From an uncultured delta proteobacterium (GTDB taxonomy: Bacteria; Myxococcota_A; UBA9160; JAFDET01), in assembly GCA_947260035.1 (NCBI GenBank), contig CAMYOO010000007.1:1-37388 (forward strand): a stretch of DNA of 37,388 nt, in the 5' to 3' direction. The notes under the pieces were generated by a model. The model was not told the origin of the DNA, searched no databases, and saw only the letters and a list, made by a program, of their open reading frames with translations. Position numbers and translations under genes: made by a program. Below are positions 15,713 through 35,894 of this stretch, piece by piece. Numbering within the stretch: position 1 is the first letter of the stretch; the number at the start of each line of letters is the position of its first letter.

Positions 15713-16696
15713 TCAGTCCAGGGTCCAGAGGGGCGCGGTCTGGGCCGCCGGCACGTTGAACATCTCGTACAGCGCCGGGATGTGGCTCAGCATCAGGACC
15801 AGGCACACGGCCGCGCAGAGCAGCGCGTACACCAGAAAGCCGCGTTCGCGGTGCAATCTCTCCGGGTTCTGCACGGGGCTGTCCGCCTGCAGGCCGATCT
15901 TCATGTAGTAGGCGAAGAAACCGCCCACCAGAGGCAGAGCCAGGATCAGCTCCAGCTTGTAGCGAACGATGAACACGCCGGTGAAGAGTCCCGCCATCAC
16001 CGCGTAGAAGAAGAGGCTCACCATGAGTCGCTCTTCGTTGTAGTGGCGGAAGGAGCGGCGGTACGCGACGGCGACCTCCTTGTCGTCGATGCGCCGATAC
16101 TCGGCCAGTCGCTTGATGGCCATGAAGAACGCGCCGGCCATCCAATAGGCGATGAAGAGCGACACCGGCGGCACCGAGCTCTGGTCAACGGCAAACCAGC
16201 CCAGCAGCAGGCGAATCGGGTTGTTGATCGACTCCGACAGGACGTCCAGGTAGGGAAGCTCCTTGGTGCGGAGCGGCGGGACGTTGTAGACGACGCCGGC
16301 AATGAAGAACGCGAGAGCCGTAGCCGCCACGGTGGGATGCGCGAGCCAGCCGGCTCCGATGCCGGCGGTCGCCAGCAGCAGCCATTCGGCCAGCGCGATG
16401 GGAGTCTTGATCAGACCCGCGGCCGCGGGACGAGTGCGCTTGACGGGATGCAGGCGGTCCTGGGGCGCATCCAGCAACTCGTTGATCACGTAGTTGCTGG
16501 ACGCCACCAGACAGGCGGCCAGCAGGGCGAGCAACACCTTGGGCAGGGCCGCGAAGGTGACGTTGGCGGGGTCGAGGAAGTAGGCGACCGCTACGCCCAG
16601 GAGCATGAAGACGTTCTTGAACCAATGATCGACCCGCGCGATCTGGACGTAGGGCCAGATGCGGCCCGACTCAGGCACGGCGGCGGTCGATTCCAT
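15713..16696 (-). CDS. UbiA prenyltransferase, decaprenyl-phosphate phosphoribosyltransferase-like
   Basis: A 327-aa polytopic membrane protein, about 8-9 helices by eye. The first Asp-rich motif is NELLDAPQDRLHPVKRTRP. It matches the D-x3-D-R-x-H-P-x-K-x2-R-P pattern of DPPR synthases such as mycobacterial Rv3806c, not the quinone or heme UbiA enzymes. The second motif region is YLDVLSESINNPIRLLLGW. DPPR synthases transfer 5-phosphoribose from PRPP to polyprenyl phosphate, starting the route to lipid-linked arabinofuranose or ribofuranose. The start ATG 16696 lies inside the end of the HAD gene (26-bp overlap). It is the last gene of the minus-strand operon. Assignment to the DPPR-like branch is fairly confident; product chemistry is inferred. 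Confidence 0.88.
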   Translation of the reverse strand: MESTAAVPESGRIWPYVQIARVDHWFKNVFMLLGVAVAYFLDPANVTFAALPKVLLALLAACLVASSNYVINELLDAPQDRLHPVKRTRPAAAGLIKTPIALAEWLLLATAGIGAGWLAHPTVAATALAFFIAGVVYNVPPLRTKELPYLDVLSESINNPIRLLLGWFAVDQSSVPPVSLFIAYWMAGAFFMAIKRLAEYRRIDDKEVAVAYRRSFRHYNEERLMVSLFFYAVMAGLFTGVFIVRYKLELILALPLVGGFFAYYMKIGLQADSPVQNPERLHRERGFLVYALLCAAVCLVLMLSHIPALYEMFNVPAAQTAPLWTLD

Positions 16697-17408
16697 GGAG
16701 CAGCTCCGAGAGGGAGGACACGCGGACGGGATCCCCGGTCGCGCGGATCGCAGCGGCCCCCCGGCGGAGGAGAGTAGGGCTGCGTTCGAGGATCGCGCAA
16801 GGCATGCCGGCTCGCGCCGCACCCGCTCCGTCGATCTCGACGCGGTCGCCCACGTAGAGGACCTGGGCGGGTTCCAGGCCCCAGAGTTCGCAGGCGCGCT
16901 GGAAACCGCGAGGGTGCGGCTTGAAGGCGTCGATCTCGTCGTCGGTGGCGCAGAGCTGGGGCTCCATGGCGTCGGAGACGCCCAGCGCCTGCAGCTTGGA
17001 CCGCACCGGATGATCGGAGAAGACACCCGCGCGCAGGCCGCGGTCGCGAAGGCTGTCCAACAGGTCCACCAGGCCGCGTCGCCGGCAGCGATGCAGATGC
17101 TTGAGCGGGCGTTCCTCGATCCACTCATGCGCCCAGCCTTCGAGCTCGGCGACCGGGACTCCCGCCCGCTGCGCCGCGGCCTCATACTGGAGGCGCTCCA
17201 ACGGCGTGTCTCGCTCGACGCCGCGCAGCTCCTCGCGCACGCTGCGAAAGGCCGAAAGGCCGCGAAGCGTGCGCTGCGCCGCAGCCGGCGAGCCGCGCAG
17301 GAAGAGGGTCGCCAGCTCCAGCACCATCAACGCGCGCAGAGGCGGCTGGTGATACAGGGTTCCGTCCAGGTCGAAGAGAACGGCGCGCAGCGGAGGGTGA
17401 TCGCTCAC
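16671..17408 (-). CDS. HAD-superfamily hydrolase (putative phosphatase)
   Basis: A 245-aa HAD enzyme with all four motifs: LFDLDGTLY (D13 nucleophile, D15), VFSDHP as motif II, FKPHPRGF carrying the motif III Lys, and LYVGDRVEIDGAGA as motif IV. The insert between motifs I and II is helical, as in the Gph/YjjG-like group. It starts at GTG 17408, overlapping the upstream gene's TGA by 4 bp (GTGA), and overlaps the UbiA start by 26 bp. Sandwiched between a GT-C-like protein and a DPPR-like UbiA, it could supply the dephosphorylation step that follows phosphoribosyl transfer. That role is inference; mycobacteria use an unrelated PAP2-type phosphatase there. Confidence 0.88.
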   Translation of the reverse strand: MSDHPPLRAVLFDLDGTLYHQPPLRALMVLELATLFLRGSPAAAQRTLRGLSAFRSVREELRGVERDTPLERLQYEAAAQRAGVPVAELEGWAHEWIEERPLKHLHRCRRRGLVDLLDSLRDRGLRAGVFSDHPVRSKLQALGVSDAMEPQLCATDDEIDAFKPHPRGFQRACELWGLEPAQVLYVGDRVEIDGAGAARAGMPCAILERSPTLLRRGAAAIRATGDPVRVSSLSELLHGIDRRRA

Positions 17409-19117
17409 GGTTGCAGCCGGTAGACCTGCACGTCGGAGCTGTCGGCCTCCTCGGGCACCGGGAGCGTGGCGACGTGCTGGAAGCCGGGCACCACAGCGCC
17501 GTCGCGGAACGCCTCGGCCAGCGCGACCCCCAGGCGCCGGTGGTAGTACGCCGCCGAGCGATTGGTCACGTCGCCGCGGTGGGTCCACACCACCAGCTCG
17601 TATCCGTCATCGCGCATGTAGGCCGCCAGCCCCGCCGGGTCCTCGGCCTTCACCTTGGCGAAGGAGCCGAGCCGATCCTTGGGAAGATCCACCAGGTGGA
17701 GGATGTGCTTGCGCGACAGCACGATGATTCGCTCGTCGGGCCCCAGATTCTCTTCCAGCCAGTGCGCCAGCGTCCAGGACGCGTAGTTCGCATGATAGAC
17801 CTCGTGAAGCTCCAGCTTCTTGCGCGCGACTCCCGACACCATCGCGCTGCTGAGGAACGCCAGCGCGATGAATGCGGCCGTGCGGCGCAGAACGGTGGGT
17901 GGCGATGCGTTGCGCAGCAGCGCCCAGACCGCGATGCCCACGCAGGCCAGAACGTAGCCGGCATCCAGCGCGGGAAGCGCCAGGCTCGGCCGCCCGCCGA
18001 GCACCGACATCCAGAACGCCAGGACGCCCGCCCACACCAGGCAGGCGGCGCCCAGCAGCGCGGGCCCCGCGCTCTCGGGCAGGCGCCGGGCCAGCTGCTG
18101 CGTCGCACCGTCGCAGAGCCGCACCAGGCCGTGGGCGCAGAAGAGCAGTGGAATCCAAAGGACTGGATAGGCGTAGCGAGCCTTGTTGACGCCAAAGGCC
18201 GCCACCACCGCGGTCGCCACGCCGAAGAAGCACAGCATCAGGAGCGCGTCGCGGCGGAAGCGGCGCAGACCGCTGGCCACGCCGAAGGCGATGGGCACGC
18301 CCACCAGCAGCAGACCGAGCGCCAGCAGGAGCGGGGAGGAGACGTTGAGGAAGGCGAACGACTCGCGCAGCGCGCGCAACGCAAAGGCGGGCTCGGGACG
18401 CCAGCCCATGCCCTCCATCAGCTCCAGGTAGAAGCTCTGGCCCTTGCCCAGGAAGGCACCCAGCGCCGTCCACGCCAGCAGCCCCGTCGAAGCCAGGGCG
18501 CCGAGGATCGCGTGGCGCCAGAAGCGCCCGTCCTCGCGCCAGTTCAGGAAGAACAAGATCGGCGCCAGGGTGGCCGCCTCCGCGCGACCCAGGCCCACGA
18601 CGAAGGCCGCCGCGTACTGCCAGGGCGAACGGCGCTGGTGCAGCACGAAGGTCAGCACCACGAAGAAGCCCAGGCTCGGCTCCACCAGCGGCTGGAGCCC
18701 CATGACGTGGAACTGCACCGTGGTTGCGAACAGCAGAGGCACCAGGATGGCGCCCTCGCCCATGGCACGGCGGGCGTACACGAAGAGCAGCGCCAGGGTC
18801 GCCAGCGCGAAGCCGGCGTTGGTCACCAGCGCCGCGTGCAGCTCGCGATGCGGCTCCGGCATGAGCGGCGAGGCCAGCGCCATCACGGCCGGGAACGCCG
18901 GCAGCCGCTTGTACTCACCGGGCAGCTCGAACGCCGCCAGGCTCCGGGCCAGGCGTTCGAAGGAGTAGTAGTCGTTGTTGGGAAGCAGAAAGGGGTGGTA
19001 CTGGACGACCCAGGCCGCCAGGGTCAGGGCGCACAGGAAGAGCAGCGCAAAGCGCTCTCCGCGCAGCGCGGCACCCGCCTCGCGGACGCCTGCCCCCCGG
19101 TTCGTGCCCTCGGCCAT
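17405..19117 (-). CDS. polytopic GT-C-like membrane glycosyltransferase (ArnT/PMT-like)
   Basis: A 570-aa protein with about 11-12 hydrophobic segments and a C-terminal soluble tail of roughly 130 aa (from KKLELHEVYH). The first periplasmic loop reads NNDYYSFERLARSLAAFELPGEYKRLPAFPAV, the usual layout of GT-C enzymes that use polyprenyl-phosphate sugars at the outer face of the inner membrane. No acceptor or donor can be read from sequence. It is 18 bp downstream of the CotH gene and overlaps the HAD gene by 4 bp. With a DPPR-like UbiA in the same operon, a lipid-linked pentose is a reasonable donor guess. Start ATG 19117. Confidence 0.78.
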   Translation of the reverse strand: MAEGTNRGAGVREAGAALRGERFALLFLCALTLAAWVVQYHPFLLPNNDYYSFERLARSLAAFELPGEYKRLPAFPAVMALASPLMPEPHRELHAALVTNAGFALATLALLFVYARRAMGEGAILVPLLFATTVQFHVMGLQPLVEPSLGFFVVLTFVLHQRRSPWQYAAAFVVGLGRAEAATLAPILFFLNWREDGRFWRHAILGALASTGLLAWTALGAFLGKGQSFYLELMEGMGWRPEPAFALRALRESFAFLNVSSPLLLALGLLLVGVPIAFGVASGLRRFRRDALLMLCFFGVATAVVAAFGVNKARYAYPVLWIPLLFCAHGLVRLCDGATQQLARRLPESAGPALLGAACLVWAGVLAFWMSVLGGRPSLALPALDAGYVLACVGIAVWALLRNASPPTVLRRTAAFIALAFLSSAMVSGVARKKLELHEVYHANYASWTLAHWLEENLGPDERIIVLSRKHILHLVDLPKDRLGSFAKVKAEDPAGLAAYMRDDGYELVVWTHRGDVTNRSAAYYHRRLGVALAEAFRDGAVVPGFQHVATLPVPEEADSSDVQVYRLQP

Positions 19118-19135
19118 GACCGCGAAGGATACCCC

Positions 19136-21556
19136 TCAGCTCCCGCCGCCGACGGCCTCGGCCACCATGCCTCGCAGCTCGGCGGGGCGCTCGGCGAAGG
19201 TGCGGCGCGCGCGCTGGAAGAGCGTGAACCGACGCTCGAGGAACTGCTGCCGCTCTTCCTCGGAGACGACCCCCGGGGTGCGGGGCATGGCCCAGGTCCG
19301 CTCCAGGCTCTCCAGCTCGTCCAGCAGCGCGAGCCAGCGGGGCTCGGCCACGACGGCGAGGAAGCGTTCCGCCGCAGCGGCATACCAGCTCGCGAAGTCG
19401 GCGTCCGCACGCAGGAGCTGGTCGAGGGCCTTCTCCGCCAGGAAGCGGGGAAACCAGCCTCGGGTGCCCAGGAACGCGCGCTGTCGCGCCAGTGTCGGCT
19501 CGCCCTGGGTGCGGAAGCCCTTGTCCAGGTCCCATGCCACCAGATGCACAAAGCCCGGTGTACGCCGGCGGTCGACGGCCACGTAGCCCTGGAGCGCATC
19601 GTCCTCGAAGGCCCCGCCCTGGGGCGCGTCGATGAAGATCCCGGTGAAGTGGAGCGCGACAATGCCGTCCAGATCCAGCTCCGCCTCCACATCCGCCAGG
19701 CTCATCTCACCGGACTCCAGCCGCGCGGCCAGGGCGTCCAGCCGCTGAAGGTCCCCCTTCTTCACCTTGAAGGGCTTGCCCTTGATCAGGTCGAAGTCGG
19801 CGTGCCCGAAACGGCTGGTCAAGAAATCATCGTCCACGTCTTCGAAAGCGATAATGCGGTTGTGGAGGACGCCGTTGACCAGGAGCACTGCGGGCCGGCT
19901 GCGCGCGGCAAGCCCGCCGGCCGCGCGCACCAGGTCGTACGCCACCTTGTCGACCCAGGCGACCGGAGTCGCGTCCAGAATCAGCCGGTCGGGCGCGGGC
20001 GCCAGTACCGGTTCGAACGGATCCAGGGGCAGACGCTCCGCCCCCAGCGAAGGACGCAGGCGCAGCTGGAAGGAGTTCTCGCGACCCCTGTCGGCCCCGG
20101 TGCCGGCGTGAGAGCGCAGGCCGGCATCTCCATCGAACGTGATGCCGCCAGCATCGAGAATCAAGGCCCGCGCGGGACGCTCCCACGCCGCCCCGCGCCC
20201 CGCGTTGTTGGGCACGATCCCGAACTCGGGATCGTGGAGGACGCGCGGATCGACGCCGAGCATCACCATGAGCTGGGTGGGAGGAGCGCCCACGTACACG
20301 ATCCGGCTCGACACCGGCGTGACCGCGCGACCGCCGCGAAACCCGCGCACGCGCAGCACCGTGGGCTCCTCGATCCGCAGAGGACCGTCGAGCCGCGCGG
20401 AGTCCGCGTCGGGGAGCGAACCGTCCAGGGTGTGGCGCAGCTCGTCGACCCCCGGCGGCGGCTCGACGCCGAACAGCAGCGGATCGCGCGACACGCTCGG
20501 AAACCCCGAGAGATCCGGCGCGGGCGCCAGCGCCCGCCCCAGCGGTGTGGGCGGCGCGTAACGGATCTCGGAGCCACCGTCGGGAACGCGCTGCCAGGTG
20601 CGACCGGGCACGAAGCGCTCGGGTGTCGCGTAGTCCGCCGCCCGGCCGGCGGGGTCCAGCAGTACCAGGGTCTCGCCGCTGCGGCGCATCCGGAAGCCGG
20701 TGTGCAGGTGCAATCCGTGCCGCCCATCGTCGCGGCCGGCACGCGCCAGCGACACGCGCTCCAGCTCCACGGCTCCGTCCCGCACTTCGAAGCGAATCTC
20801 CCACTTCCCCGGCCCCTCGATCCCGCTTGCCACGCGCAGGTGCCGGCGCCTGCGCGACGGCTGCAGCGCCGCTTCGAGCGGCGGACCCGCGTCCAACGTT
20901 ACGCGCAGCCGACTCGGGGCCGGACCCGGCGCGCGGGCGCCGACCCAGAGGTCGTAGGGGCCGGCGTCGGGCGCCTCCAGCACCACGCGCACCAGCCCCA
21001 CCGCCGCGGTCTCCGCCTTCGGATCCACCACGAGCCGCGGCGGATCGAGCAGGAGCCGCTCGCCATCCGCTTTCGGGTCCAGGATCGCCCCGACCGTGCG
21101 CGCCAGCGCGCTGCCGGCGCGATCCTTGCCGGACGCGAAAACCAGCAGGTGCTCTCCGGGCCCCAGGGTCACGTCGGGCAGGATCCAGCGCCGGCTCGAC
21201 CTGCGGCCATCCGCCAGGCTCCAGCCCGCCAGCGCCACACTCGCCTCGGCGCGGTTGAAGAGCTCGATCCAGTCCGACGGCGCCAGGTCTTCGTCGAAGA
21301 CGGCGTCGCGGTTCACGGTGGCGATCTCGTTGAGGACCAGCGGCGAACGCGGCGACCCCGGGCCGAGCGCCTCGAGACGGGCCAGGCTGCGCGCCGTACG
21401 CGTGGCCCGCGCCGTGGGTGCGGTATCGGATGCGCGGCTCTCGCCCGGACGCGGCAGCTGCCAGCGCTGCTGGATCCAGGCGGCGACGCCGATCGCGGCC
21501 AGTGCGAGCACAAGGCCCGCTAGCGCGCGGCGCCGATTGCGGTTGGGCGGGGCCAC
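19136..21556 (-). CDS. lamin-tail-domain / CotH-kinase-like secreted protein
   Basis: An 806-aa protein with an N-terminal signal anchor (ALAGLVLALAAIGVAAW, residues 11-27). Next is a lamin-tail-like domain from about 72, with LVLNEIATVN and SDWIELFNRAEASVALAGWSLAD; it seems to carry an insert and close near PDGGSEIRYAPPTPLG. A chitobiase-type β-sandwich follows (LRHTLDGSLPDADSARLDGPL). The C-terminal 350 aa are CotH-kinase-like, with HAGTGADRGRENSFQLRL, DLIKGKPFKVKKGD, LDLDGIVALHF and HLVAWDLDKGF. CotH proteins are atypical kinases that phosphorylate surface proteins. LTD-CotH proteins are known to travel with VTC and DUF4956 genes, as here. Start GTG 21556, 6 bp after the DUF4956 stop. Kinase activity is inferred. 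Confidence 0.85.
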   Translation of the reverse strand: MAPPNRNRRRALAGLVLALAAIGVAAWIQQRWQLPRPGESRASDTAPTARATRTARSLARLEALGPGSPRSPLVLNEIATVNRDAVFDEDLAPSDWIELFNRAEASVALAGWSLADGRRSSRRWILPDVTLGPGEHLLVFASGKDRAGSALARTVGAILDPKADGERLLLDPPRLVVDPKAETAAVGLVRVVLEAPDAGPYDLWVGARAPGPAPSRLRVTLDAGPPLEAALQPSRRRRHLRVASGIEGPGKWEIRFEVRDGAVELERVSLARAGRDDGRHGLHLHTGFRMRRSGETLVLLDPAGRAADYATPERFVPGRTWQRVPDGGSEIRYAPPTPLGRALAPAPDLSGFPSVSRDPLLFGVEPPPGVDELRHTLDGSLPDADSARLDGPLRIEEPTVLRVRGFRGGRAVTPVSSRIVYVGAPPTQLMVMLGVDPRVLHDPEFGIVPNNAGRGAAWERPARALILDAGGITFDGDAGLRSHAGTGADRGRENSFQLRLRPSLGAERLPLDPFEPVLAPAPDRLILDATPVAWVDKVAYDLVRAAGGLAARSRPAVLLVNGVLHNRIIAFEDVDDDFLTSRFGHADFDLIKGKPFKVKKGDLQRLDALAARLESGEMSLADVEAELDLDGIVALHFTGIFIDAPQGGAFEDDALQGYVAVDRRRTPGFVHLVAWDLDKGFRTQGEPTLARQRAFLGTRGWFPRFLAEKALDQLLRADADFASWYAAAAERFLAVVAEPRWLALLDELESLERTWAMPRTPGVVSEEERQQFLERRFTLFQRARRTFAERPAELRGMVAEAVGGGS

Positions 21557-21562
21557 CCGTCC

Positions 21563-22261
21563 CTAGACGCCGCCCTGCCGCGAGAAGAGCACCGAGACGT
21601 CCTCGGGCGCGCAGTGCTCTGCGATCGCCGCACGCGTCGCACTCCAGTCGATGCCCGGACGGCCGCGGAAGGCGTAGTTGAGGTGCGTGCGACCGTCTCG
21701 TGCCGACAGGTGCTCCAGCCGCACGCGGCCCAGGCGCGCGGCCAGGAAACCCTCGAGAGCGCCCCCGTGACGGGCGAAGGCCTCGTCGTCCAGGGTGAGC
21801 ATGAGCATGCCCCCGTGACGCCCGCGGCCTCCCAGGCGATCTCCCAGGAAGCGGCGCCCGGCCAGGACCAGCAGCACGATGGCGAAGAGCATCCCCAGCA
21901 GCCCGTAGCTGGCGGTGGCGCAGGCGATGGACGAGGCGATCACGATCATCAGGAAGCCCACCTCTTCGGGCTCCTTGATGGGAACGCGGAATCGCACGAT
22001 GGAGAGAGCGCCGAGCAGGCCCAGCGAGAGGGGCAAGGAGAGCTGGACCGTGATGAAGAGCAGAGTCACCGACGGCCCCACCAACATGAACGAGCGCTGG
22101 ATCTGGGAGCCGGTTTCCACGTGATCGTAGAAGGTCTCGTACAGAAGCTGGGCCGCCAGCGCCGCCGCGGTGGAGACCAGCAGGGCCAGCGCCATTCCCG
22201 CGGCGCCCAGCTCGCTCCCGGGCGGGGATGCCGCCACCAAGCGATCCAGAAGGGTCTGCAT
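21563..22261 (-). CDS. DUF4956-family membrane protein
   Basis: A 232-aa protein with about four hydrophobic segments in the first 150 residues. The hallmark stretch LLGALSIVRFRVPIKEPEEVGFLMIVIASSIACATASYG identifies DUF4956. The C-terminal ~80 aa are soluble, with a ferredoxin-like βαβ look. Function is unknown. The family is regularly encoded beside VTC-domain and CotH genes, suggesting a membrane partner of the polymerase. The true start is ATG 22261, overlapping the VTC stop by one base (TGATG). The ORF track's 321-aa form is extended through the VTC gene. Confidence 0.88.
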   Translation of the reverse strand: MQTLLDRLVAASPPGSELGAAGMALALLVSTAAALAAQLLYETFYDHVETGSQIQRSFMLVGPSVTLLFITVQLSLPLSLGLLGALSIVRFRVPIKEPEEVGFLMIVIASSIACATASYGLLGMLFAIVLLVLAGRRFLGDRLGGRGRHGGMLMLTLDDEAFARHGGALEGFLAARLGRVRLEHLSARDGRTHLNYAFRGRPGIDWSATRAAIAEHCAPEDVSVLFSRQGGV

Positions 22262-22965
22262 CAGGCGCATCCTCCTCGGACATGGTCGACACACAGGCCG
22301 TACTTGGAGAGCGCGGTCTTGCGCGCGTAGCGCCCGATCAGCCGCGACAGCCAGGGCGCGGGCTGCGCGTGGTCGCCCTTCACTTCGACGACGAAGAAGG
22401 GAAGCCGGCCCGGCGGGCGCCGCTGCGCCAGTGTCGACGCCGCCCAGCGCACCGAGACGTCCCGATCCAATGCGATGCGCGCGCTGCCGTCGGGAGCGAT
22501 GCGTCGCAGCCGGCGGTAGCTGAGCCACAGCACCGGCCGCAGAGAAACGCTCAGGTGCTCGCGCACCAGCGCGGCCAGCGCCACCTCATCCGGGCGTTCG
22601 AGCGGAGCGAAGGCGATGCGCTTGCGCCGCTTGCCACCGAGCGCACCGACCCGGAACTTGGACTCGAGCCAGGCGTGGCCGTCCCCCGGCTCGTACCAAC
22701 GCAGGCGAAGCTTCTCCTTGACGTACTGCCCGTCGGCCTTGTCCCGATAGGCCACCAATCGCGGCGTGTCGTAGTAGACCGAGTGCACCACGTTCTCCGC
22801 AAAGTCGGGGTCCGGAGGGCAGTGAGCGACCAGCAGCGCCTCCATGGCACCCACGCGCGAGGCCGGCCCGACGTACTTGAGCTCGTGGCGTGCGGCAGAC
22901 GTCTGCCAGCCCGGCGCCAGGACGCCGGCCTGCGAGGCCGCTTCGCTTCCGGACGCGGAGATCAC
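22261..22965 (-). CDS. VTC-domain polyphosphate-polymerase-like protein
   Basis: A compact 234-aa VTC domain of the CYTH/triphosphate-tunnel type. The tunnel-lining basic and acidic residues are visible: RHELKY (26-31), YYDTP (64-68), KLRLRW (R87, R89), LESKFR (E101, K103), the basic patch KRRKR, YRRLRR (150-155), ALDRDVSV, VVEVKGD (E194, K196) and LSKYG (K221). In yeast Vtc4 such residues bind triphosphate and polymerise ATP γ-phosphate into polyphosphate. Bacterial VTC proteins are only partly characterised. It starts at GTG 22965, overlapping the lipoprotein TGA by 4 bp, and its stop overlaps the DUF4956 start. No membrane segment of its own, so DUF4956 may provide one. Confidence 0.9.
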   Translation of the reverse strand: MISASGSEAASQAGVLAPGWQTSAARHELKYVGPASRVGAMEALLVAHCPPDPDFAENVVHSVYYDTPRLVAYRDKADGQYVKEKLRLRWYEPGDGHAWLESKFRVGALGGKRRKRIAFAPLERPDEVALAALVREHLSVSLRPVLWLSYRRLRRIAPDGSARIALDRDVSVRWAASTLAQRRPPGRLPFFVVEVKGDHAQPAPWLSRLIGRYARKTALSKYGLCVDHVRGGCA

Positions 22966-23903
22966 GGCCCGGGACAGGATTTGGGCCAACCGCCCAGGAA
23001 GGATGCCTTTCCCCAGCCGGAGGCCTCGCCGAAATTCAGCACGTAGATCGGGTTCGGGTGGTTGCCCTCCACGACGAAGAACTCGGAGCGCCCGTAGGCC
23101 AAGCCCTTGGCCATGTTCAAGCCGATGCTGGTCAGATCGTGACGGGCTTTCTCCTGCCGTGTCTTCCAATCCAACTGGACGAGCATGCGGTCCTGGGTGA
23201 GCACCCAGAGACTGCCGCCCTGCCGAGCCATGCCGACGATGCCGCCGTACTCGGAGACCCAAAGCGCCTCGGGCTCCTCGCCTTCGGCCCCGACGAAGCG
23301 GTTCTCAGCGTAATCGTAGACGTAGACCGCCGCTCCCAGGGCTACCAGGAGATCGCTGCCCACGATCTCGATGGGCCCGTACTTGTGACCCTCTTCCAGC
23401 GCCTTCCACTCCACGAACTTGAGGTTCTCGCCCTTCGCCGGGCTCTGGAGCATGAAGATCGCCGGCTTGTCCACCGCCGGCGTCTCCTTCAGCTTGTTCA
23501 CGGTGTTGACCACGTACAGCGTCCGCTTCGCGCGGTCGTAGGCCAGCGATTCGAACTCAGCGGTGTAGGAGCAGTCCACGTCCGCGGATCCGTTGTCGCA
23601 GGCCTTGGCGTCCGGAAACGCCGCCGTGAAGTCGCGCTGGCGCAGACGCGCGCGGTAGGCGCCCGTCTCGCTGTCCACGATGTAGATCTGGTTCGAGTTG
23701 TCGTCGCCCACCCAGAGCTGGTCGCTGCCCTTCTCGAAGGTCAGGTCCTCGAGGTCGGCCGCCACGACCCGCGAGCCCTCGAAGGGCTTGCTGCGGATGG
23801 TGCGGGCCACGCACAGGCCCTCCACCGGCGTCGAGCGATGCACGCAGGCCGACGCGAAGACGACGACCCAGGCGAAGGCCAGCATGAGGCGGACGGCGCG
23901 CAT
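22962..23903 (-). CDS. lipoprotein, β-propeller (phytase-like/SdiA-regulated-like)
   Basis: A 313-aa exported lipoprotein: MRAVRLMLAFAWVVVFASAC has a hydrophobic core ending in a lipobox-like ASAC, with C20 as the lipidation site. The mature part has repeated strand patterns such as DLEDLTFEKGSDQLWVGDD, FESLAYDRAKRTLYVVNT and GIVGMARQGGSLWVLTQD. This matches a β-propeller of the phytase-like or SdiA-regulated kind. Phytase-like activity would suit the phosphate theme of the operon, but no catalytic set can be confirmed. The start ATG 23903 has GGGAGGGG about 9 nt upstream. As the first gene of the minus-strand operon it overlaps the VTC gene by 4 bp. Confidence 0.8.
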   Translation of the reverse strand: MRAVRLMLAFAWVVVFASACVHRSTPVEGLCVARTIRSKPFEGSRVVAADLEDLTFEKGSDQLWVGDDNSNQIYIVDSETGAYRARLRQRDFTAAFPDAKACDNGSADVDCSYTAEFESLAYDRAKRTLYVVNTVNKLKETPAVDKPAIFMLQSPAKGENLKFVEWKALEEGHKYGPIEIVGSDLLVALGAAVYVYDYAENRFVGAEGEEPEALWVSEYGGIVGMARQGGSLWVLTQDRMLVQLDWKTRQEKARHDLTSIGLNMAKGLAYGRSEFFVVEGNHPNPIYVLNFGEASGWGKASFLGGWPKSCPGP

Positions 23904-24026: not shown

Positions 24027-24863
24027 GTGCCCCGTCGCATCGAACGCGTCCTCCAGCGACTGCTCCCCGGGGCGGCTGCCCGCCTTCCCCTGCCGGACTT
24101 CCTGGGCATCGGCGCCCAGAAGGCGGGCACCACCTGGCTGGCGGCCAATCTGCGTCGACACCCGGACGTGTTCATGCCGGAGCGCAAGGAGCTGCACTTC
24201 TTCGACAACAAGTGGGACCGCCCGCTGCGCGAGTACGCGCGGCACTTCGAGGGGGGCGCAGGCCGGATCAAGGGCGAGATCACTCCCGCCTACGGGATCC
24301 TGCCCCCGGAGCGAATCCGCTACCTGCGCCGGGTGATGCCGCGCGTGCGGTTGCTGCTGCTGCTGCGCAACCCGATCGAACGCGCCTGGTCCCATGCGCT
24401 GATGGACCTGGCCTCCCGGCGCGGACGCGACCCCGAGCAGATCCCGTTCGACGAAGCGATCGCGTTCCTGGAGTCCGACCTGGCCGTGCGACGCAGCGAC
24501 TACGGAGCCATGCTCGACGCCTGGCTGGCGGTGTTCCCGCGCGAGCAGCTCTACGTGGGCTTCTTCGAGTGGATTCGCGAGCGACCCCGCGAGCTGTTGT
24601 CCGAGGTCTTCCGCCACATCGGCGTCTCCCCGGAGGTAGACTGGGCGGACTTCCCACTGGAGAAGGTGATCGTGCCCGGCGTCGCTCCCGGACGAAAGGG
24701 ACACACCACCGAGTGCCTGGAGCGTGCCGAGGGCTCCGACGAGAGCGGCCGGCACTCCTGCCCCGAGCCGGTGCGCCGCTGGCTGGAGCAGCGCTATGCA
24801 GACGACCTGGAGCGGCTGGCCCAACGGCTGGGCGGCCCGGCCGAACGCTGGCGCGTCTCATGA
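24027..24863 (+). CDS. PAPS-dependent sulfotransferase (first of three)
   Basis: A 278-aa cytosolic sulfotransferase of the heparan-sulfate/NDST-like group, which transfers sulfate from PAPS to a sugar hydroxyl or amine. The 5'-phosphosulfate-binding loop is LGIGAQKAGTTWL, with catalytic-type K32. MPERKELHFFDNKW and IKGEITPAYG follow as in NDST/HS3ST relatives, and the 3'-phosphate-binding segment is LLLRNPIERAWSHAL (R114, S122). The start is GTG 24027 with GGAGGT just upstream. It is the first gene of the plus-strand operon and overlaps the sulfatase by 4 bp (ATGA). The acceptor is unknown; context favours a glycan. Confidence 0.92.
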   Translation: MPRRIERVLQRLLPGAAARLPLPDFLGIGAQKAGTTWLAANLRRHPDVFMPERKELHFFDNKWDRPLREYARHFEGGAGRIKGEITPAYGILPPERIRYLRRVMPRVRLLLLLRNPIERAWSHALMDLASRRGRDPEQIPFDEAIAFLESDLAVRRSDYGAMLDAWLAVFPREQLYVGFFEWIRERPRELLSEVFRHIGVSPEVDWADFPLEKVIVPGVAPGRKGHTTECLERAEGSDESGRHSCPEPVRRWLEQRYADDLERLAQRLGGPAERWRVS

Positions 24864-26341
24864 GCGGCGCGGATCGAGGCCGGCGTTCTCTGCTCGAACG
24901 GCTGCGGTCCTGGGCCGACCGGCCGCCGACCGGACCGCGGCCTCCCAACGTGCTGCTGATCCTGTCCGACGAGCACAACGCGGGGGTCGCCGGCTTCGCC
25001 GGAAACCGCGTGGCCCGGACGCCGAACCTGGACGATCTGGCGGCGCGCGGCGTGGTCTTCGACGCGGCCTACTGCAACTCGCCTCTCTGCGGGCCCTCGC
25101 GCATGTCCCTCACGGCGGTGCGCCATCCGTCGCGGGTGAGCGCCTGGGGCAACGCCTCGTGGCTCCCCAGCGACGACGTGCCGTCGATCGCCCGGGCCAT
25201 GAACGCCGCCGGCTACGAGTCCCTGCTGTGCGGCAAGCAGCACTACGACGCCACGCGCCGCTACGGCTTCCGCGAGCTCGGCTCGTGGCGCACGAACCAG
25301 TATCGCAAGACGGGAATCGTGCGCCGACGAGACCCCGACGACTGGACGCCCCCGGAGCAGATCTCCAAGCGCTTCTCCAACTTCCGGCCGGGCGATGACT
25401 CGCCGGTGATGCGCCACGACCGCGCCGTCACCGAGACCGCGGGTTCCTTCCTGCGGCGTCGCAGCCGCAAGGACGCTCCCTTCTTCCTGCTGGTGGGCTA
25501 CCTGGCGCCCCACTTTCCGCTGATCGTGCCCGAAGCGTACTGGAACCGGTATCGCGGCCGGGTGCCGCTGCCGGAGATACCGCCCGGCCACCTGGAGAGC
25601 CAGCCGCGAAACTACCGGCACCTGCGCCTGGGCTTTGCCATGCAGGATGTCCCCGAGGAAACCGTGCTGAAGGGGCGCGAGCTCTACTACGGGCTCAGCG
25701 AGTGGATGGACGACCAGGTCGGCCGGCTGCTGGGTGCGCTCCAGCGCAGCCGGGTCGCCGACGACACCGTCGTCATCTACGCCAGCGACCACGGGGAGAG
25801 CCTTGGCGAGCACGGCTTGTGGTGGAAGAACTGCGCCTACGAAGGCGCCAGCCGGGTTCCCCTGGTGGTGAGCTGGCCCGAGCGCTGGAAGGGCGGCCAG
25901 CGCCGCAACGGAGCGTGCTCCCTCGTGGACCTGATGCAGAGCATCGCCGAGCTGGGCGGCGCCGAGCCCGACGCCGCCTGGGACGGCGACTCCCTGTGCA
26001 GCTGGCTCGACGCGGCCGAGACCCCGTGGAAGGACCGTGCGCTCTCCGAGTACTACGGTCACAACGTGACCTCGGCCTTCAGCATGCTGCGCAGTGGATC
26101 CTGGAAGTACGTCTACCACACGCCGCCGGACGCTCGGCACCCGGCGGAGCGGGAGCTCTACGACCTGGCGGCCGACCCGGGCGAGTTCGACAATCGGGCC
26201 GAGGACCCGGAGCAGGCCCAGCGCGTCGAGGCGCTGCACCGGGAGCTGGTGGACACGGTGGGCGAGGATCCCGACGCCGTGGACGCGCGCTGCCGGGCGG
26301 AAGTGACGACGGGCTACCAGCGGAGCGACGAACCGTCATGA
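24860..26341 (+). CDS. formylglycine-type sulfatase
   Basis: A 493-aa alkaline-phosphatase-fold sulfatase. NVLLILSDEHN carries the metal-binding Asp. SPLCGPSRMS is the CxPSR signature, whose C77 would be converted to formylglycine by FGE or an anaerobic SME. Later ASDHGESLGEHGLWWK gives the metal-binding DHG. No N-terminal signal peptide is visible (MSGADRGRRSLLERLRSW), suggesting cytoplasmic action, unlike most polysaccharide sulfatases. It starts at ATG 24860, overlapping the sulfotransferase stop by 4 bp, and overlaps the next gene by 4 bp. The ORF track's 805-aa form runs through the sulfotransferase in another frame and is spurious. Substrate unknown; opposition to the adjacent sulfotransferase is inference. 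Confidence 0.92.
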   Translation: MSGADRGRRSLLERLRSWADRPPTGPRPPNVLLILSDEHNAGVAGFAGNRVARTPNLDDLAARGVVFDAAYCNSPLCGPSRMSLTAVRHPSRVSAWGNASWLPSDDVPSIARAMNAAGYESLLCGKQHYDATRRYGFRELGSWRTNQYRKTGIVRRRDPDDWTPPEQISKRFSNFRPGDDSPVMRHDRAVTETAGSFLRRRSRKDAPFFLLVGYLAPHFPLIVPEAYWNRYRGRVPLPEIPPGHLESQPRNYRHLRLGFAMQDVPEETVLKGRELYYGLSEWMDDQVGRLLGALQRSRVADDTVVIYASDHGESLGEHGLWWKNCAYEGASRVPLVVSWPERWKGGQRRNGACSLVDLMQSIAELGGAEPDAAWDGDSLCSWLDAAETPWKDRALSEYYGHNVTSAFSMLRSGSWKYVYHTPPDARHPAERELYDLAADPGEFDNRAEDPEQAQRVEALHRELVDTVGEDPDAVDARCRAEVTTGYQRSDEPS

Positions 26342-27273
26342 AGACCGTCCTTTTCGAGCGGCGCTTCAAGAAGTTCCAGGGCGGCCACCTCAAGGCCTAC
26401 CACTACTTCACCCACGTGCTCGCTTCGCCGAACTGGACCGCGAAGGTCCGCTTCAGCGAGGACTCGGTCTGGGACGAAAGCAATCCCTGGATGGCTCATC
26501 CGGACAATGTCCTGGCGCCCGACGAGTCCTGCGCCCACGACGTGCACTTCCTGGGCGGCCGCGACTGGGAACGGATCCCGGAGAGCCAGCGCGAGAACCC
26601 GCCCGTGCCCCGGATCAACCTGATCCAGCACACCCGGCACGGTTTCCCCGACGACCCGCGCCGGCCCTTCCTGCGCTACCGGGCGGTGCGGATCTGCTGC
26701 AGCGAGGAGGTGGCGGATTCGATCCGGGCCGCCGGCGCCAACGGACCCGTCTTCACCAACCCCTACGGCCTGGATCCGGGCGAGCTTCCCGAGCCGATCC
26801 CCTTCGACGCCAAGCCGCTCGACCTGCTGATCGTGGCCATCAAGGGGCCGCGCTTGGGCCGGCGGCTGCGCTGGCGGCTGTGGCGCCCCCGCCGCCGCAT
26901 CGGGCTCCTGACGCAGCCCATCCTGCGCAGCGACTTCCTCAACCTGGTCAACCGCGCGCGGGTCACGCTCTTCCTGCCCCACGTGGACGAGGGGTTCTAC
27001 ATCCCGGCTCTGGAGGGAATGGGGCTGGACACGATCGTGGTGTGCCCGGACTGCGTGGGCAACCGCTCGTTCTGCATCCCCGAACAGACCTGCCTGCGGC
27101 CGCCCTTCGAGTTCCGCGCCATCCGCAGCGCCGCCGAGGATGCGTTGCGCCTGTCGGCGGCGCAGGCCGAGCCCATGCTGAAGGCCGCCCGCGAGATGTT
27201 CGGGAGCCACACACTGGTGCGCGAACGCGAACGCTTCCTGTCGATCCTGGACGACCTGGACGGAATCTGGTGA
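26338..27273 (+). CDS. GT-B-type glycosyltransferase (GT4-like)
   Basis: A 311-aa protein resembling the C-terminal half of GT-B glycosyltransferases. FNPYGLDP-like text is present as FTNPYGLDPGELP after VRICCSEEVADSI. The donor-binding signature is LPHVDEGFYIPALEGMGLDTIV, the E-G-F-x-x-P-x-L-E pattern, with D217/E218. MKTVLFERRFKKFQGGHLKAYHYF at the start fits an acceptor-side Rossmann strand with a Gly-rich loop. The domain is short for the family (usually 350-400 aa). It starts at ATG 26338 in an ATGA overlap with the sulfatase stop, and its TGA overlaps the next GTG. The acceptor is probably the same glycan as the flanking genes. Confidence 0.75.
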   Translation: MKTVLFERRFKKFQGGHLKAYHYFTHVLASPNWTAKVRFSEDSVWDESNPWMAHPDNVLAPDESCAHDVHFLGGRDWERIPESQRENPPVPRINLIQHTRHGFPDDPRRPFLRYRAVRICCSEEVADSIRAAGANGPVFTNPYGLDPGELPEPIPFDAKPLDLLIVAIKGPRLGRRLRWRLWRPRRRIGLLTQPILRSDFLNLVNRARVTLFLPHVDEGFYIPALEGMGLDTIVVCPDCVGNRSFCIPEQTCLRPPFEFRAIRSAAEDALRLSAAQAEPMLKAAREMFGSHTLVRERERFLSILDDLDGIW

Positions 27274-28973
27274 GCCGCGCGGCGGCAGGGCTCGCGCTGG
27301 TCATCGCAGCGCTGGCTCCCGTGCTGCTCTTCGACCGCTTCGGGTACGACTTCCTCTTCCACCAGGACCGGGCGCTGATGAAGCGACTGGCCTGGGCCGC
27401 GCTGGCGATCCCCCTGCTCAGCCTGCCGCCGGCGCTCCTGTTGGGCTGGCATCGCGGCGCCGCGGACATCGCCGAACGCGTGGCGCGCCTCGGACTCCGC
27501 GCGCCGGCGCGGCGGAGGGCGCTGGCGCTGCTGGCCGTATTCGCGACAGGGGTGCTGGTCTCCTCGGGGGTCCTGCTCCACTTCCCCAACTCGGCGGATG
27601 AGTTCGCCTACCTCTTCCAGGCGGAGACCTACGCGAGCGGACGCCTCTGGATCGACGAGCATCCGGTCCAGGCGTTCGTTCAGTTCATGCACTCGAAGGT
27701 GCTGGACGGCCGCTGGGTGAGCCGCTTCCCACCGGGCTGGCCGGCCTTCCTCGCCCCGTTCCTGGCCCTGGGGCTGCCCGCCTGGCTGGTGAATCCCATG
27801 GTGGCGGCGGCCTGCGTGGCCCTGCTCTACGTCCTGGGGCGGCGCTGCTTCGGCGAACGCGCGGGTCTCCTGGCGGCCGCGCTCTTCGCCCTGTCGCCCT
27901 TCCTGATCCTGAACGCCGGCGCCGAATACAGCCACCTGTTCGCCGCACTGCTCTCGCTGATCTTCGCGCTGGCGGGCACGCGCTACCTGGAGCGACCCTC
28001 GGCGGGCGCGGCCCTGGTGGCGGGCCTGGCCCTGGGCTGGCTGGGCCTGGCGCGCACCATGAACCCGGTGCTCCTGGGCGCACCGTTCGCCGTCGCGCTG
28101 CTGGCGCGGCGCTCGTGGCCTCACCTGCTGCGCGGCTGGCCGCTGGCGCTGGGAGGCGGCGCATTCCTCGCGCTGCTGTTGGCCTACAACGGCGTGCTCA
28201 CCGGGGATCCCACCCTGCCGCCCACGCTGGTGGACGATCCCAAGCAGACCATCGGCTTCGTGGGCGGCCACACGCCGGCGCGGGCCTGGAAGTTCATCCA
28301 GCACCGTCTGCTGCTGCTGCCGCGCTACACGTCCGGGCTCTTCCTCTTCGTCTACGGGCTCGCGCTGGCGCGCGGCGCCCAGCGCCGTGACCTGCGCTGG
28401 TGGGACGCGTACTTCTTGCTCGAGGTGCTGGGCTACTCCCTCTACCACAACAGCTCCCACGACACCTACGGGCCGCGCTACCTGTTCGAAGCCTTCCCGT
28501 TCGCGGCGCTGCGCATCGCGGCGGCGTGCGCGCCGCGCGCCGAGGGCCGGCCCTGGGCGCCGGTCTTCAGCTGGCTCGTGGCCCTGCACCTGGCCACGGC
28601 CGTGACCGGCATCGTCTCCACGGCGTGGCTCCACGGGCGCGTGATTCGCGAGCGACGCGATCCGGTCCGGGCCGTGGAGGAGGCGGGGCTCCGGAACGCG
28701 GTGGTCTTCGTGGCCTCGGACACCAGCCCGACGAGCCGCATGCCCAAGTTCGACCTGGTCCGGAACCCGCCCGACGTGGACGACCAGCCGGTGGTCTGGG
28801 CGCACTTCCGCAAGCAGGAGCTGGAACGAATCGAGGCCTACTACCCGGAGCGGACGTTCTGGGTCTACCAGCGCCCGCCCGACCAGGTGAGGGGACGCCT
28901 GGTCCCCCTGGACGCGTGGCGAGCCTCTCGAGCCGCCGGAGAGGCCGCCGCAGGCGCCGATCCGGGCGTTTGA
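27270..28973 (+). CDS. polytopic GT-C-like glycosyltransferase (GT39/GT83-like)
   Basis: A 567-aa membrane protein with about 10-12 hydrophobic segments. After the third, the periplasmic loop reads FPNSADEFAYLFQAETYASGRLW. D110/E111 match the acidic pair typical of GT-C enzymes such as ArnT and PMT. RFPPGWPAFLAPFLALGLP and SHDTYGPRYLFEAFPF are also typical. The C-terminal ~130 aa are soluble. It should transfer a sugar from a polyprenyl-phosphate donor outside the inner membrane, but neither sugar nor acceptor is known. It starts at GTG 27270 (GTGA overlap). A 33-bp gap with two GGGGAC copies separates it from the next gene, the only spacing over 30 bp in this operon. Confidence 0.8.
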   Translation: MSRAAAGLALVIAALAPVLLFDRFGYDFLFHQDRALMKRLAWAALAIPLLSLPPALLLGWHRGAADIAERVARLGLRAPARRRALALLAVFATGVLVSSGVLLHFPNSADEFAYLFQAETYASGRLWIDEHPVQAFVQFMHSKVLDGRWVSRFPPGWPAFLAPFLALGLPAWLVNPMVAAACVALLYVLGRRCFGERAGLLAAALFALSPFLILNAGAEYSHLFAALLSLIFALAGTRYLERPSAGAALVAGLALGWLGLARTMNPVLLGAPFAVALLARRSWPHLLRGWPLALGGGAFLALLLAYNGVLTGDPTLPPTLVDDPKQTIGFVGGHTPARAWKFIQHRLLLLPRYTSGLFLFVYGLALARGAQRRDLRWWDAYFLLEVLGYSLYHNSSHDTYGPRYLFEAFPFAALRIAAACAPRAEGRPWAPVFSWLVALHLATAVTGIVSTAWLHGRVIRERRDPVRAVEEAGLRNAVVFVASDTSPTSRMPKFDLVRNPPDVDDQPVVWAHFRKQELERIEAYYPERTFWVYQRPPDQVRGRLVPLDAWRASRAAGEAAAGADPGV

Positions 28974-29006
28974 CAGCCTCGGGGACGTAGGGGACATTCG
29001 GCCGCC

Positions 29007-29840
29007 ATGCACCGCGAGAAGACGACGGTCCTGCCGAGCTTCCGCGTCGCGACGGCCCCGCTGCGCATGCTCCCGGCCTTCTCGATCATCTCCGTCGAGC
29101 GCGCCGGCACCACGTCGTTGTATCGCTACCTGTGCCAGCACCCGCGGATCGGCGAGGCCTTCCGCAAGGAAGTGCACTACTTCGACATGAACCACGGGCG
29201 CGGTGTCGGCTGGTACCGCGCTCACTTCCCCAGCCGCGCCTGGTCGCGCTGGTCGGCGCTACGCCAGGGAGGTGCCGGGATCACCGGCGAGGCCAGCCCC
29301 TACTACCTCTACCACCCCCACGTTCCGGTTCGCATGGCCGAGCTGCTCCCGGACGTGAAGCTGGTGGCGCTGGTTCGCAACCCCGTGGAACGCGCCTACT
29401 CGCACTACCACCTGAACGTGCGCCAGGAGAAGGAGACGCTGTCCTTCGAGGATGCCCTGGATCGCGAGGAAGAGCGTCTTGCCGGCGAGTGGGAGAAGCT
29501 GGTGGCCGATCCGGACTATTGGAGCCACGCCCACTACACGTTCGCCTACCGGGCCCGCGGCCTCTACGCCCAGCGCCTGGAGGAGTGGCACAAGCACTTC
29601 GCACCGGAGCGGATCCTGGTGGTGCGCAGCGAGGACCTCTACGCCGATCCCGCCTCGGTGGTGACCCGGGTCTTCCAGCACCTGGAGCTTCCGGACTTTC
29701 GGCCCGAGGGCTTCAAAGCCTACAACCAGAAGCCCTACCCCGGGCTGTCGGCGGAGACGCGACGCGGCCTGGCGCAGTTCTTCGAGCCTCACAACCAGCG
29801 TCTGTACGAGCTTCTGGGTCGCGACCTCGGCTGGACGTGA
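29007..29840 (+). CDS. PAPS-dependent sulfotransferase (second of three)
   Basis: A 277-aa sulfotransferase of the NDST/HS-sulfotransferase-like family. The phosphosulfate loop is FSIISVERAGTTSLYRYL, with Arg (R32) where heparan enzymes have Lys; this occurs in many bacterial members. KEVHYFDMNHGRG and ITGEASPYYLYHP follow. The 3'-phosphate site is LVALVRNPVERAYSHYHL. The C-terminus (YADPASVVTRVFQHLELPDF) is standard. ATG 29007. Its TGA overlaps the next GTG by 4 bp. It is clearly diverged from the sulfotransferase at 24027, so this is not a recent duplication, and a different position or acceptor is likely. Confidence 0.92.
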   Translation: MHREKTTVLPSFRVATAPLRMLPAFSIISVERAGTTSLYRYLCQHPRIGEAFRKEVHYFDMNHGRGVGWYRAHFPSRAWSRWSALRQGGAGITGEASPYYLYHPHVPVRMAELLPDVKLVALVRNPVERAYSHYHLNVRQEKETLSFEDALDREEERLAGEWEKLVADPDYWSHAHYTFAYRARGLYAQRLEEWHKHFAPERILVVRSEDLYADPASVVTRVFQHLELPDFRPEGFKAYNQKPYPGLSAETRRGLAQFFEPHNQRLYELLGRDLGWT

Positions 29841-31270
29841 GCGAACCGGCACCGCCGACACGAACCCAGGGGCCCCTGCGCCGCGCCGCGCCCGCCCTCT
29901 TCGCCCTTCTGGTCTTCCTCAGCACGGGCCTGGCCGGCGAGCGTTGGATCAGCCTGGCGCCGGAAACCGGCGGCAGCCTGCACAACCTGAGCCTGTCCTG
30001 GAACCTGTGGCGCTGGGGCATCGCCTCCACACGCCGCGCCACGCCTCCGGAGCTGCAGCCGGAAAACCGGCGCGAGCCGCTCTACTCGATGCTGCTGGCG
30101 GGCGTGCTGGCGGTGAGCGCCGACCGCGAGACCACCAGCCGCGCCTGCGTCTTCCGGCGCGAACCCGCCTGCGAGAAGCTGGCGCTGCGTTTGAAGCGCA
30201 CCAACGTCTGGATCCTGGCGGCCACCTGCGCCGCCACGTTCCTGGCCGCGCGCAGCGTTCTGGGTCCGGGCCCGGCCGCCTATCTCGCGTGCCTGATCTT
30301 CGCGATGACGGGTCCCCTGTGGCGGGTCCTCGACCGCGCCAAGAGCGAGACCCTGGCGACGCTGCTTGTGTTGCTCGCATGCTGGGGTCTCTACGCCGCC
30401 GTGAGCCGCGCTCGCTGGCGCGTCCCAGCCGTCGCGGGAGGCGTCGCCCTGGGGCTCCTGATGCTGACCAAGGCGGTCTTCTTCTTCGCCGGCCCGGTGC
30501 TGCTGGCGGCCGCGCTCTTGCCCGTGAAGGAACGCCGGCCCTGGAAGCCGATCGGGGCCGCCCTGGCCGTCGCCTACCTGGTGACGGCGCCGTGGGTCGC
30601 GCGCAACCTGCATCACGACCTGGGCTTTGGAATCTCCCGCGACCGCGAGGTGCTGGCGATCCGCGCGGAGCACACCACCATGAGCTGGCGCGAGTGGTCC
30701 GCGTCGTGGCTCTACTTCGCCGGCGAGGGTTCCGGACTGGCGCGCGGGCTCCTCGAGCGGAGCTTCGCACCCGAAGACTGGGCGCGACTCATGGAGAGCA
30801 ACCCGGACGGCTACTACCTGCGCGCCAAGAAGAACCGGGGCGCGGTGGCGGCCCGGGTGCGGGACGGCCCTGTCACCGAGGACGCCACCTACGAGGCTGC
30901 CAAGGCGGTGATCCTGGAGCACTGGCCCATGCAGATCGCCGTCACCGGCCCGTTCGCCGTGCGCGGCATCTTCGTGGGGCAGAACCTGTACCGTTGGCCG
31001 CGGGCAAAGCGGGTGGCTCGCACCCTGGCCAACCTGATGATTCCGGCGCTGGCGATCTGGATCGGCCTGCTCGCCCTGCGCGCCGACACGGCGCGCCTGT
31101 GGTTCGTCGTGCTGCCGGTATTCAGCTACGCCTTCCACGCGGGCATCACCCAGAACATCGACCGCTTCACGTGGCCGATCCTCCCCGAGGCCGCGGTCGC
31201 CTTCGCCGCGCTCTGCACGTTGGCGGCTGCCGGCGTGGCCACAAGAACCCGGAGCCGTCCGGCAGCCTGA
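29837..31270 (+). CDS. polytopic GT-C-like membrane protein
   Basis: A 477-aa integral membrane protein with about 10 hydrophobic segments. An early extracytoplasmic loop contains a PENRREPLYSMLLAGVLAVS stretch, resembling the 'R-x-P-x-Y-P' loop of GT39/GT83-like enzymes. ILAATCAATFLAARSVLG, GLLMLTKAVFFFAGPVLLAAALL and TQNIDRFTWPILPEAAVAFAALC are further membrane segments. No clear DxD/DE pair stands out in the first loop, so the GT-C assignment is weaker than for 27270-28973. It starts at GTG 29837 (GTGA overlap with the sulfotransferase). The coupling suggests it and the sulfotransferase act on the same substrate. Confidence 0.7.
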   Translation: MSEPAPPTRTQGPLRRAAPALFALLVFLSTGLAGERWISLAPETGGSLHNLSLSWNLWRWGIASTRRATPPELQPENRREPLYSMLLAGVLAVSADRETTSRACVFRREPACEKLALRLKRTNVWILAATCAATFLAARSVLGPGPAAYLACLIFAMTGPLWRVLDRAKSETLATLLVLLACWGLYAAVSRARWRVPAVAGGVALGLLMLTKAVFFFAGPVLLAAALLPVKERRPWKPIGAALAVAYLVTAPWVARNLHHDLGFGISRDREVLAIRAEHTTMSWREWSASWLYFAGEGSGLARGLLERSFAPEDWARLMESNPDGYYLRAKKNRGAVAARVRDGPVTEDATYEAAKAVILEHWPMQIAVTGPFAVRGIFVGQNLYRWPRAKRVARTLANLMIPALAIWIGLLALRADTARLWFVVLPVFSYAFHAGITQNIDRFTWPILPEAAVAFAALCTLAAAGVATRTRSRPAA

Positions 31271-31298
31271 CCCCGGGGTGGCCTATCATGCTTGCACC

Positions 31299-35099: not shown

Positions 35100-35178
35100 C
35101 CGCGCCACGGTAGCCCAGGGCGAACGTCCGGCTCTCCCCGCGCCGTGCCCGCGAATGAGGGCTAGCCTTGATCCGCCG

Positions 35179-35880: not shown

Positions 35881-35894
35881 GAGCCGGACCCGAG

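Follow-up and report, generated by a model that had tools for sequence, protein, structure and literature searches.

The systems closest to the locus considered here are of two kinds. The first is the three-component pathway of pentofuranose transfer, which involves PPPRS, a HAD phosphatase, a flippase and a GT-C glycosyltransferase (PMC11127046); in Citrobacter youngae O1/O2 these are represented by ORF15 (PPPRS-PRP), ORF14 (MATE flippase) and ORF12 (GT136) (PMC11127046). A further comparison is provided by the decaprenylphosphoryl-5-phosphoribose (DPPR) synthase Rv3806c and the EmbABC-Aft arabinan pathway of mycobacteria (8j8j; PMC10994848). The second kind is the set of CotH, poly-phosphate polymerase, DUF4956 and DUF4832 genes adjoining Gram-positive Pel genes (PMC7112168). 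In S. intermedius, deletion of the CotH-type gene and the MgtC/ACT-type gene, the latter equated here with DUF4956 by its position and description, alters the Pel level and aggregation, and the three-gene arrangement was stated not to be found outside Pel loci (PMC12345266). Here we analyze a block of seven minus-strand genes at positions 15713-23903 of a 37,388-nucleotide stretch (further referred to as the window) of contig CAMYOO010000007.1 from an uncultured delta proteobacterium of the Myxococcota (assembly GCA_947260035.1), where relatives of both kinds of genes stand in one operon. The joining of two known modules is real and is kept at the genus level; it is not a widespread new system. 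We give about an even chance to the block being a lineage-specific cell-envelope operon which would place a pentofuranose onto a surface glycan and which includes a phosphate module, both modules having existed before they were joined.

Like the Citrobacter system, the window encodes a UbiA-fold phosphoribosyltransferase-like protein, a HAD phosphatase and a GT-C protein together, and by this analogy the pentose part resembles the characterised pathway of PMC11127046. The HAD and UbiA genes are separate and overlapping in the window, whereas they are fused in Citrobacter, and the GT-C protein is classed by fold only, with ArnT as the nearest match, whereas ORF12 belongs to GT136. Unlike the Citrobacter system, the window operon includes neither a flippase nor an epimerase gene and is joined to VTC/DUF4956/CotH. 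With the Rv3806c system it shares most residues of the phosphoribosyl pyrophosphate (PRPP) site and a GT-C partner, as well as a DprE1-like oxidase encoded elsewhere in the genome; it differs in having an NE rather than ND motif, G in place of Q135, no linked DprE1/DprE2, and a HAD phosphatase instead of the unrelated Rv3807c. As in the Pel accessory set, the VTC and DUF4956 genes, adjacent and both scoring above the family cut-offs, are clustered with a CotH-like gene near polysaccharide genes. Unlike Pel loci, the window contains no Pel genes and no DUF4832, and the set is not contiguous with pelDEADAFG; moreover, its CotH-like protein is divergent and carries an N-terminal LTD, and the set is linked to the pentose module. 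The preliminary description of the locus, made from the sequence alone, knew of no account of this combination, which is true of the combination, whereas each half has been published (PMC11127046 for the pentose half; PMC7112168 and PMC12345266 for the phosphate half).

Structure of the operon

All seven genes have the place and strand given in the preliminary description. Start codons were re-chosen; the list of open reading frames (ORFs) overstates several genes, e.g. UbiA, which occupies 16696-15713 and not 17185-15713. In the order of transcription the genes are as follows.

22962..23903, minus strand: predicted lipoprotein, 313 aa, beta-propeller-like; signal peptide and ...FASAC lipobox, sub-threshold Phytase-like PF13449 match
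22261..22965, minus strand: VTC (polyphosphate-polymerase-like, triphosphate tunnel) protein, 234 aa; PF09359, 90 bits; GTG start overlaps the lipoprotein stop
21563..22261, minus strand: DUF4956 membrane protein, 232 aa; PF16316, 41 bits, above cut-off
19136..21556, minus strand: LTD - CHB_HEX_C - CotH-like protein, 806 aa; N-terminal membrane/signal anchor, predicted to be exported
17405..19117, minus strand: GT-C glycosyltransferase by fold (AlphaFold and Foldseek), 570 aa
16671..17408, minus strand: HAD-IA phosphatase, 245 aa; PF00702, 73 bits, motifs intact
15713..16696, minus strand: UbiA-fold polyprenyl-phosphate phosphoribosyltransferase-like protein, 327 aa; PF01040, 89 bits; 26 bp overlap with HAD

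The junctions are −4 bp (lipoprotein-VTC), −1 bp (VTC-DUF4956), +6 bp (DUF4956-CotH), +18 bp (CotH-GT-C), −4 bp (GT-C-HAD) and −26 bp (HAD-UbiA), in agreement with the earlier claim that the seven genes are packed, with overlaps or with gaps not exceeding 18 bp. The family labels proposed at that time hold for VTC, DUF4956, LTD, HAD and UbiA by Pfam and for GT-C by fold, the CotH label remaining under the cut-off. At its start the block is separated by 123 bp from a divergent gene for a sulfotransferase, and at its end by 15 bp from a convergent trehalose-phosphate synthase/phosphatase (otsAB-type) gene; given these neighbours we treat it as a bounded unit. A single transcript is suggested by the intergenic gaps; the promoter and terminator scan yielded no signal above chance.

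The genus was represented by three genomes, that of the window and two congeners, G001 and G002. The VTC half and the HAD-UbiA coupling are present in all three, with almost the same junctions. In G001 the order is lipoprotein-VTC-DUF4956-CotH-HAD-UbiA with junctions of −4, −1, +6 and −26 bp as in the window, and in G002 the gene order of the window is split by a contig end within the DUF4956-CotH region. Since the congener orthologues are 56–80% identical (window vs G001), with the ratio of nonsynonymous to synonymous substitution rates (dN/dS) of 0.23–0.46, and the junction lengths are equal, the seven ORFs are considered real genes.

The pentose module

Sequence comparison makes the pentose module well supported. 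A profile of the UbiA protein (eight relatives) matches in PDB, at E<0.01, only the M. tuberculosis DPPR synthase (8j8j/8j8k). The PRPP contact residues were taken from PMC10994848 and supplemented with D74 and D81, loop-II residues that were mutated in PMC11127046. Positions R22, K28, Y70, N73, D77, D81, K87, R90 and Y138 are identical in 81 of 81 sequences, and the K143 region retains R and K. Two search patterns contain K28, Y70, N73 and the E found at the D74 position, hence the invariance of these residues is partly selected, whereas that of the others is not. The UbiA protein is thus supported as DPPR-synthase-like, as the preliminary description had proposed.

On the other hand, it could be a related transferase with another donor (a different phosphosugar or a prenyl acceptor), and then the term "pentose" would be wrong. 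This would agree with the E at the D74 position in all 81 sequences (NE instead of ND motif), with the G replacing Q135, the ribose O3 contact, in 80 of 81, and with UbiA scores below every NCBIfam cut-off: the best models are decaprenyl-phosphate phosphoribosyltransferase and UbiA family prenyltransferase, and the equivalog model of the former gives 98.3 bits against the cut-off of 234. We consider such a transferase improbable, given that the equivalent of D74 makes no substrate contact (PMC11127046), the remaining PRPP-site residues are identical, and the PDB matches are DPPR synthase only; besides, a phosphosugar product would need a phosphatase partner, as is found.

Among the 85,462 species genomes scanned, we found 80 loci with the NE-type UbiA (L103-L182). 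This subfamily has a wide distribution, comprising Planctomycetota, Acidobacteriota, Nitrospirota, Thermodesulfobacteriota and Myxococcota. HAD as the partner of UbiA, suggested earlier for the window, recurs: the two are adjacent or fused in 32 of the 80 loci from several phyla, compared with a HAD motif in 6 of 2227 distant background ORFs. At least three kinds of HAD are involved, namely HAD-IA upstream, the DxDCT type upstream or fused, and the PF12710 type downstream. As different phosphatases were recruited repeatedly, a phosphate-bearing product of UbiA would fit. In the window HAD, the DLDGT, K163 and GD motifs are all intact. Within the order members examined, a close HAD beside UbiA is kept only in the genus of the window; HAD-UbiA pairs are also seen in Acidobacteriota, Nitrospirota and Planctomycetota. 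UbiA appears to be vertically inherited in the genus, since the tree puts the latter next to its order-mates. Clustering of the HAD with L019/L102 seems to be artefactual, the GT-C gene having been read through out of frame, and was not used. An asparagine-synthase-type gene lies within the stretch at about 24 NE-type UbiA loci.

A DprE1-like FAD oxidase, for which DprE1 structures are the best PDB matches, is encoded elsewhere in the genome of the window (L188:7477-8958; G000 C19). Given this gene, albeit unlinked to the operon, both ribose and arabinose are possible as the sugar. No DprE2-like gene was noticed beside the oxidase.

The GT-C protein matches no Pfam or NCBIfam family, and its profile has no sequence match in PDB; hence the assignment was settled by fold search. 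Its AlphaFold model has a mean predicted local distance difference test score (pLDDT) of 87, and Foldseek ranks first ArnT, an undecaprenyl-phosphate pentose transferase, in a structure containing undecaprenyl phosphate (E 2e-8, probability 1.00), followed by ALG12 and PglB, with AftB and AftD lower down. Judging by the model, the protein is a true GT-C fold. An invariant PxNxD motif in the first loop, after the first transmembrane helix (LLPNNDYYSFE in the window protein), fits the catalytic loop of a GT-C enzyme.

The phosphate module

To our knowledge, no biochemical function is known for the VTC/DUF4956/CotH set. The PF09359 match of the VTC protein is full-length and above the cut-off. 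The catalytic-domain family is common to this protein and the eukaryotic VTC complex (Vtc4; 3g3q): in the alignment with yeast Vtc4 the RLRWY and E-x-K motifs are kept, the PDB match being weak (E 0.0014). In contrast to the Vtc4 complex, there is no SPX or VTC1 membrane domain, and DUF4956 is the candidate membrane partner. DUF4956 is the customary neighbour of VTC proteins across the order, with relatives in most of the 42 stretches around VTC matches, and CotH-like ORFs are present in 24 of these stretches.

In the CotH-like protein, LTD (PF00932, 39 bits) exceeds its cut-off, and CotH (PF08757) scores 20.1 bits, under the cut-off of 23.8. Comparison with well-supported CotH domains is weak as well (hhalign E 2e-4, but probability 45%), and the label is based on sub-threshold profile matches and the LTD/CHB_HEX_C/CotH domain order. 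Structure models of the C-terminal domain for three sequences have pLDDT 40 and are unusable; the PDB sequence search with this protein gave only a weak lamin-tail match. The lipoprotein has orthologues in G001 (59% identity) and G002, and also in the sister genus (L107), there without VTC alongside.

No Pel family was found in the family scans of the window, and PelG is absent from the window's own genome. Since PelG was found in only one of the 80 genomes of the order (G041:C88:81131-82501), and that genome has no VTC match, the VTC/DUF4956/CotH set also occurs without Pel, contrary to the statement of PMC12345266.

VTC and DUF4956 genes also occur in another architecture (L062, which is G058 C228; L075; L069), in which an OEP (TolC-like) gene is among those that follow in L062 and L075, suggesting an export route. 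In L062, the VTC gene is preceded by that of a DUF3616 protein. An oxidase of the ALO family encoded close to VTC in G058 was considered as a linked DprE1 and set aside: its gene is divergent from the VTC genes, and its neighbour looks D-amino-acid/threonine aldolase-type, which speaks against this idea.

Distribution of the linkage

In the phylum, 379 genomes were searched; VTC was found in 182 of them and the NE-type UbiA in 12. The arrangement in the window could have arisen by chance, two independent envelope modules having been joined in the ancestor of the genus into one transcript while acting on different products. This would explain why VTC is linked to the NE-type UbiA in only three of the 12 genomes, the congeners, while VTC itself is so common. 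Along with the UbiA substitutions and score and the CotH score given above, several findings weigh against a joint role. In the other nine genomes UbiA is unlinked to VTC or VTC is missing, and at 78 UbiA loci from other genera no VTC, DUF4956 or CotH was found in the fetched flanks, where divergent copies may escape phmmer and the contigs are in several cases short. In the sister genus (L107, which we equate with G003 because the VTC place is identical), lipoprotein-otsAB-GT2-MBL-UbiA stand in one locus, without VTC, DUF4956, CotH, GT-C and HAD. GT-C varies inside the genus: in G001 no GT-C gene stands between CotH and HAD, a 57% identical one being on another contig, and in G002 a short deletion near residue 62 throws the gene out of frame (L017:1140-1330), so that it is either a pseudogene or wrongly assembled. 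Finally, no flippase of the MATE/SMR type was found among the seven genes or the family matches of the flanking-window ORFs, the genome not having been searched for one, and the seven genes include no epimerase. Thus, conservation of the UbiA/HAD/GT-C half with the VTC half, the test set by the preliminary description itself, is seen in three of three genomes of the genus and fails outside it, in the other nine genomes and at the 78 loci, and GT-C as a part of the conserved half is intact only in the window.

Because of the narrow distribution and the unstable GT-C, a chance neighbourhood is nearly as likely as a joint role, and we regard it as a serious possibility, with perhaps one chance in three. 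Evidence against it comes from the equal junction lengths in the window and G001 despite the 56–80% protein identity, which indicate that the arrangement is kept, and from the CotH gene of G001, which still precedes HAD-UbiA although GT-C is missing there.

In the region L102:5774-11138 of G001 (contig C39), the displaced GT-C gene lies, as seen by eye, a few kb from polyphosphate kinase 1-, CYTH- and SixA-like ORFs. In family f4, GT-C and UbiA are neighbours and there is no VTC; wherever the sequence suffices, an NAD-epimerase-type gene lies upstream.

Proposed function

Of these readings we favour the one in which both halves serve a surface glycan together: the junctions are conserved, the predicted sites of the proteins span from the cytosol to the outer face, and in three of three congeners the block is bordered by genes of the sulfotransferase, sulfatase and glycosyltransferase types. 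Going beyond the observed gene content, motifs, folds and genus-level linkage, we infer all enzymatic activities, the acceptor, the flippase and the common product of the two halves as follows. UbiA would transfer 5-phosphoribose from PRPP to polyprenyl phosphate, and the HAD protein, translationally coupled to it, would strip the 5'-phosphate. A flippase would carry the polyprenyl-phosphate pentofuranose across the membrane, and GT-C would move the pentofuranose to a periplasmic acceptor, the sugar being ribose or, should an epimerase take part, arabinose/xylose. In the weaker part of the model, cytosolic VTC and membrane DUF4956 would produce polyphosphate or a related phosphate compound and perhaps also export it, and the exported CotH-like protein and the lipoprotein would work at the outer face, aiding a surface polysaccharide as their relatives do in Pel loci.

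A bolder version of the phosphate part seems to us very unlikely. It supposes that VTC polyphosphate passes through the inner membrane via DUF4956 and serves, where ATP is scarce, as the donor for the exported CotH-like kinase, which would phosphorylate the pentofuranose-decorated glycan or proteins binding it; if true, polyphosphate would feed phosphorylation outside the cytoplasm, and this system would be coupled to the lipid-linked transfer of pentose.

Under the preferred joint role, the presence of VTC/DUF4956/CotH in one operon with a chemically predictable pathway provides a concrete candidate client for this set, a pentofuranose-bearing, probably sulfated surface glycan. Given the wide spread of the subfamily, pentofuranosylated glycans in the phyla with the NE-type UbiA may exceed current descriptions.

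As the client shared by both halves we consider likely the sulfated glycan of the sulfotransferase, sulfatase, GT-C and GT2 genes located directly upstream on the other strand. Alternatively, the target could be a protein, e.g. a pilin, as in arabinosylated type IV pili; indeed, a PPPRS orthologue was proposed for pilin arabinosylation in Pseudomonas aeruginosa (PMC11127046). We find a protein target unlikely, as the vicinity of the block contains neither pilin nor secretion genes, and its neighbours are sulfotransferase, sulfatase and GT2 genes. The plus-strand cluster at 24027-37349 of the window, which looks like a sulfated-glycan locus, encodes three sulfotransferases, a sulfatase, a PMT_2-type GT-C, a GT2/AAA protein and others, and its near part (two sulfotransferases, the sulfatase and the PMT_2-type gene) is kept in both congeners.

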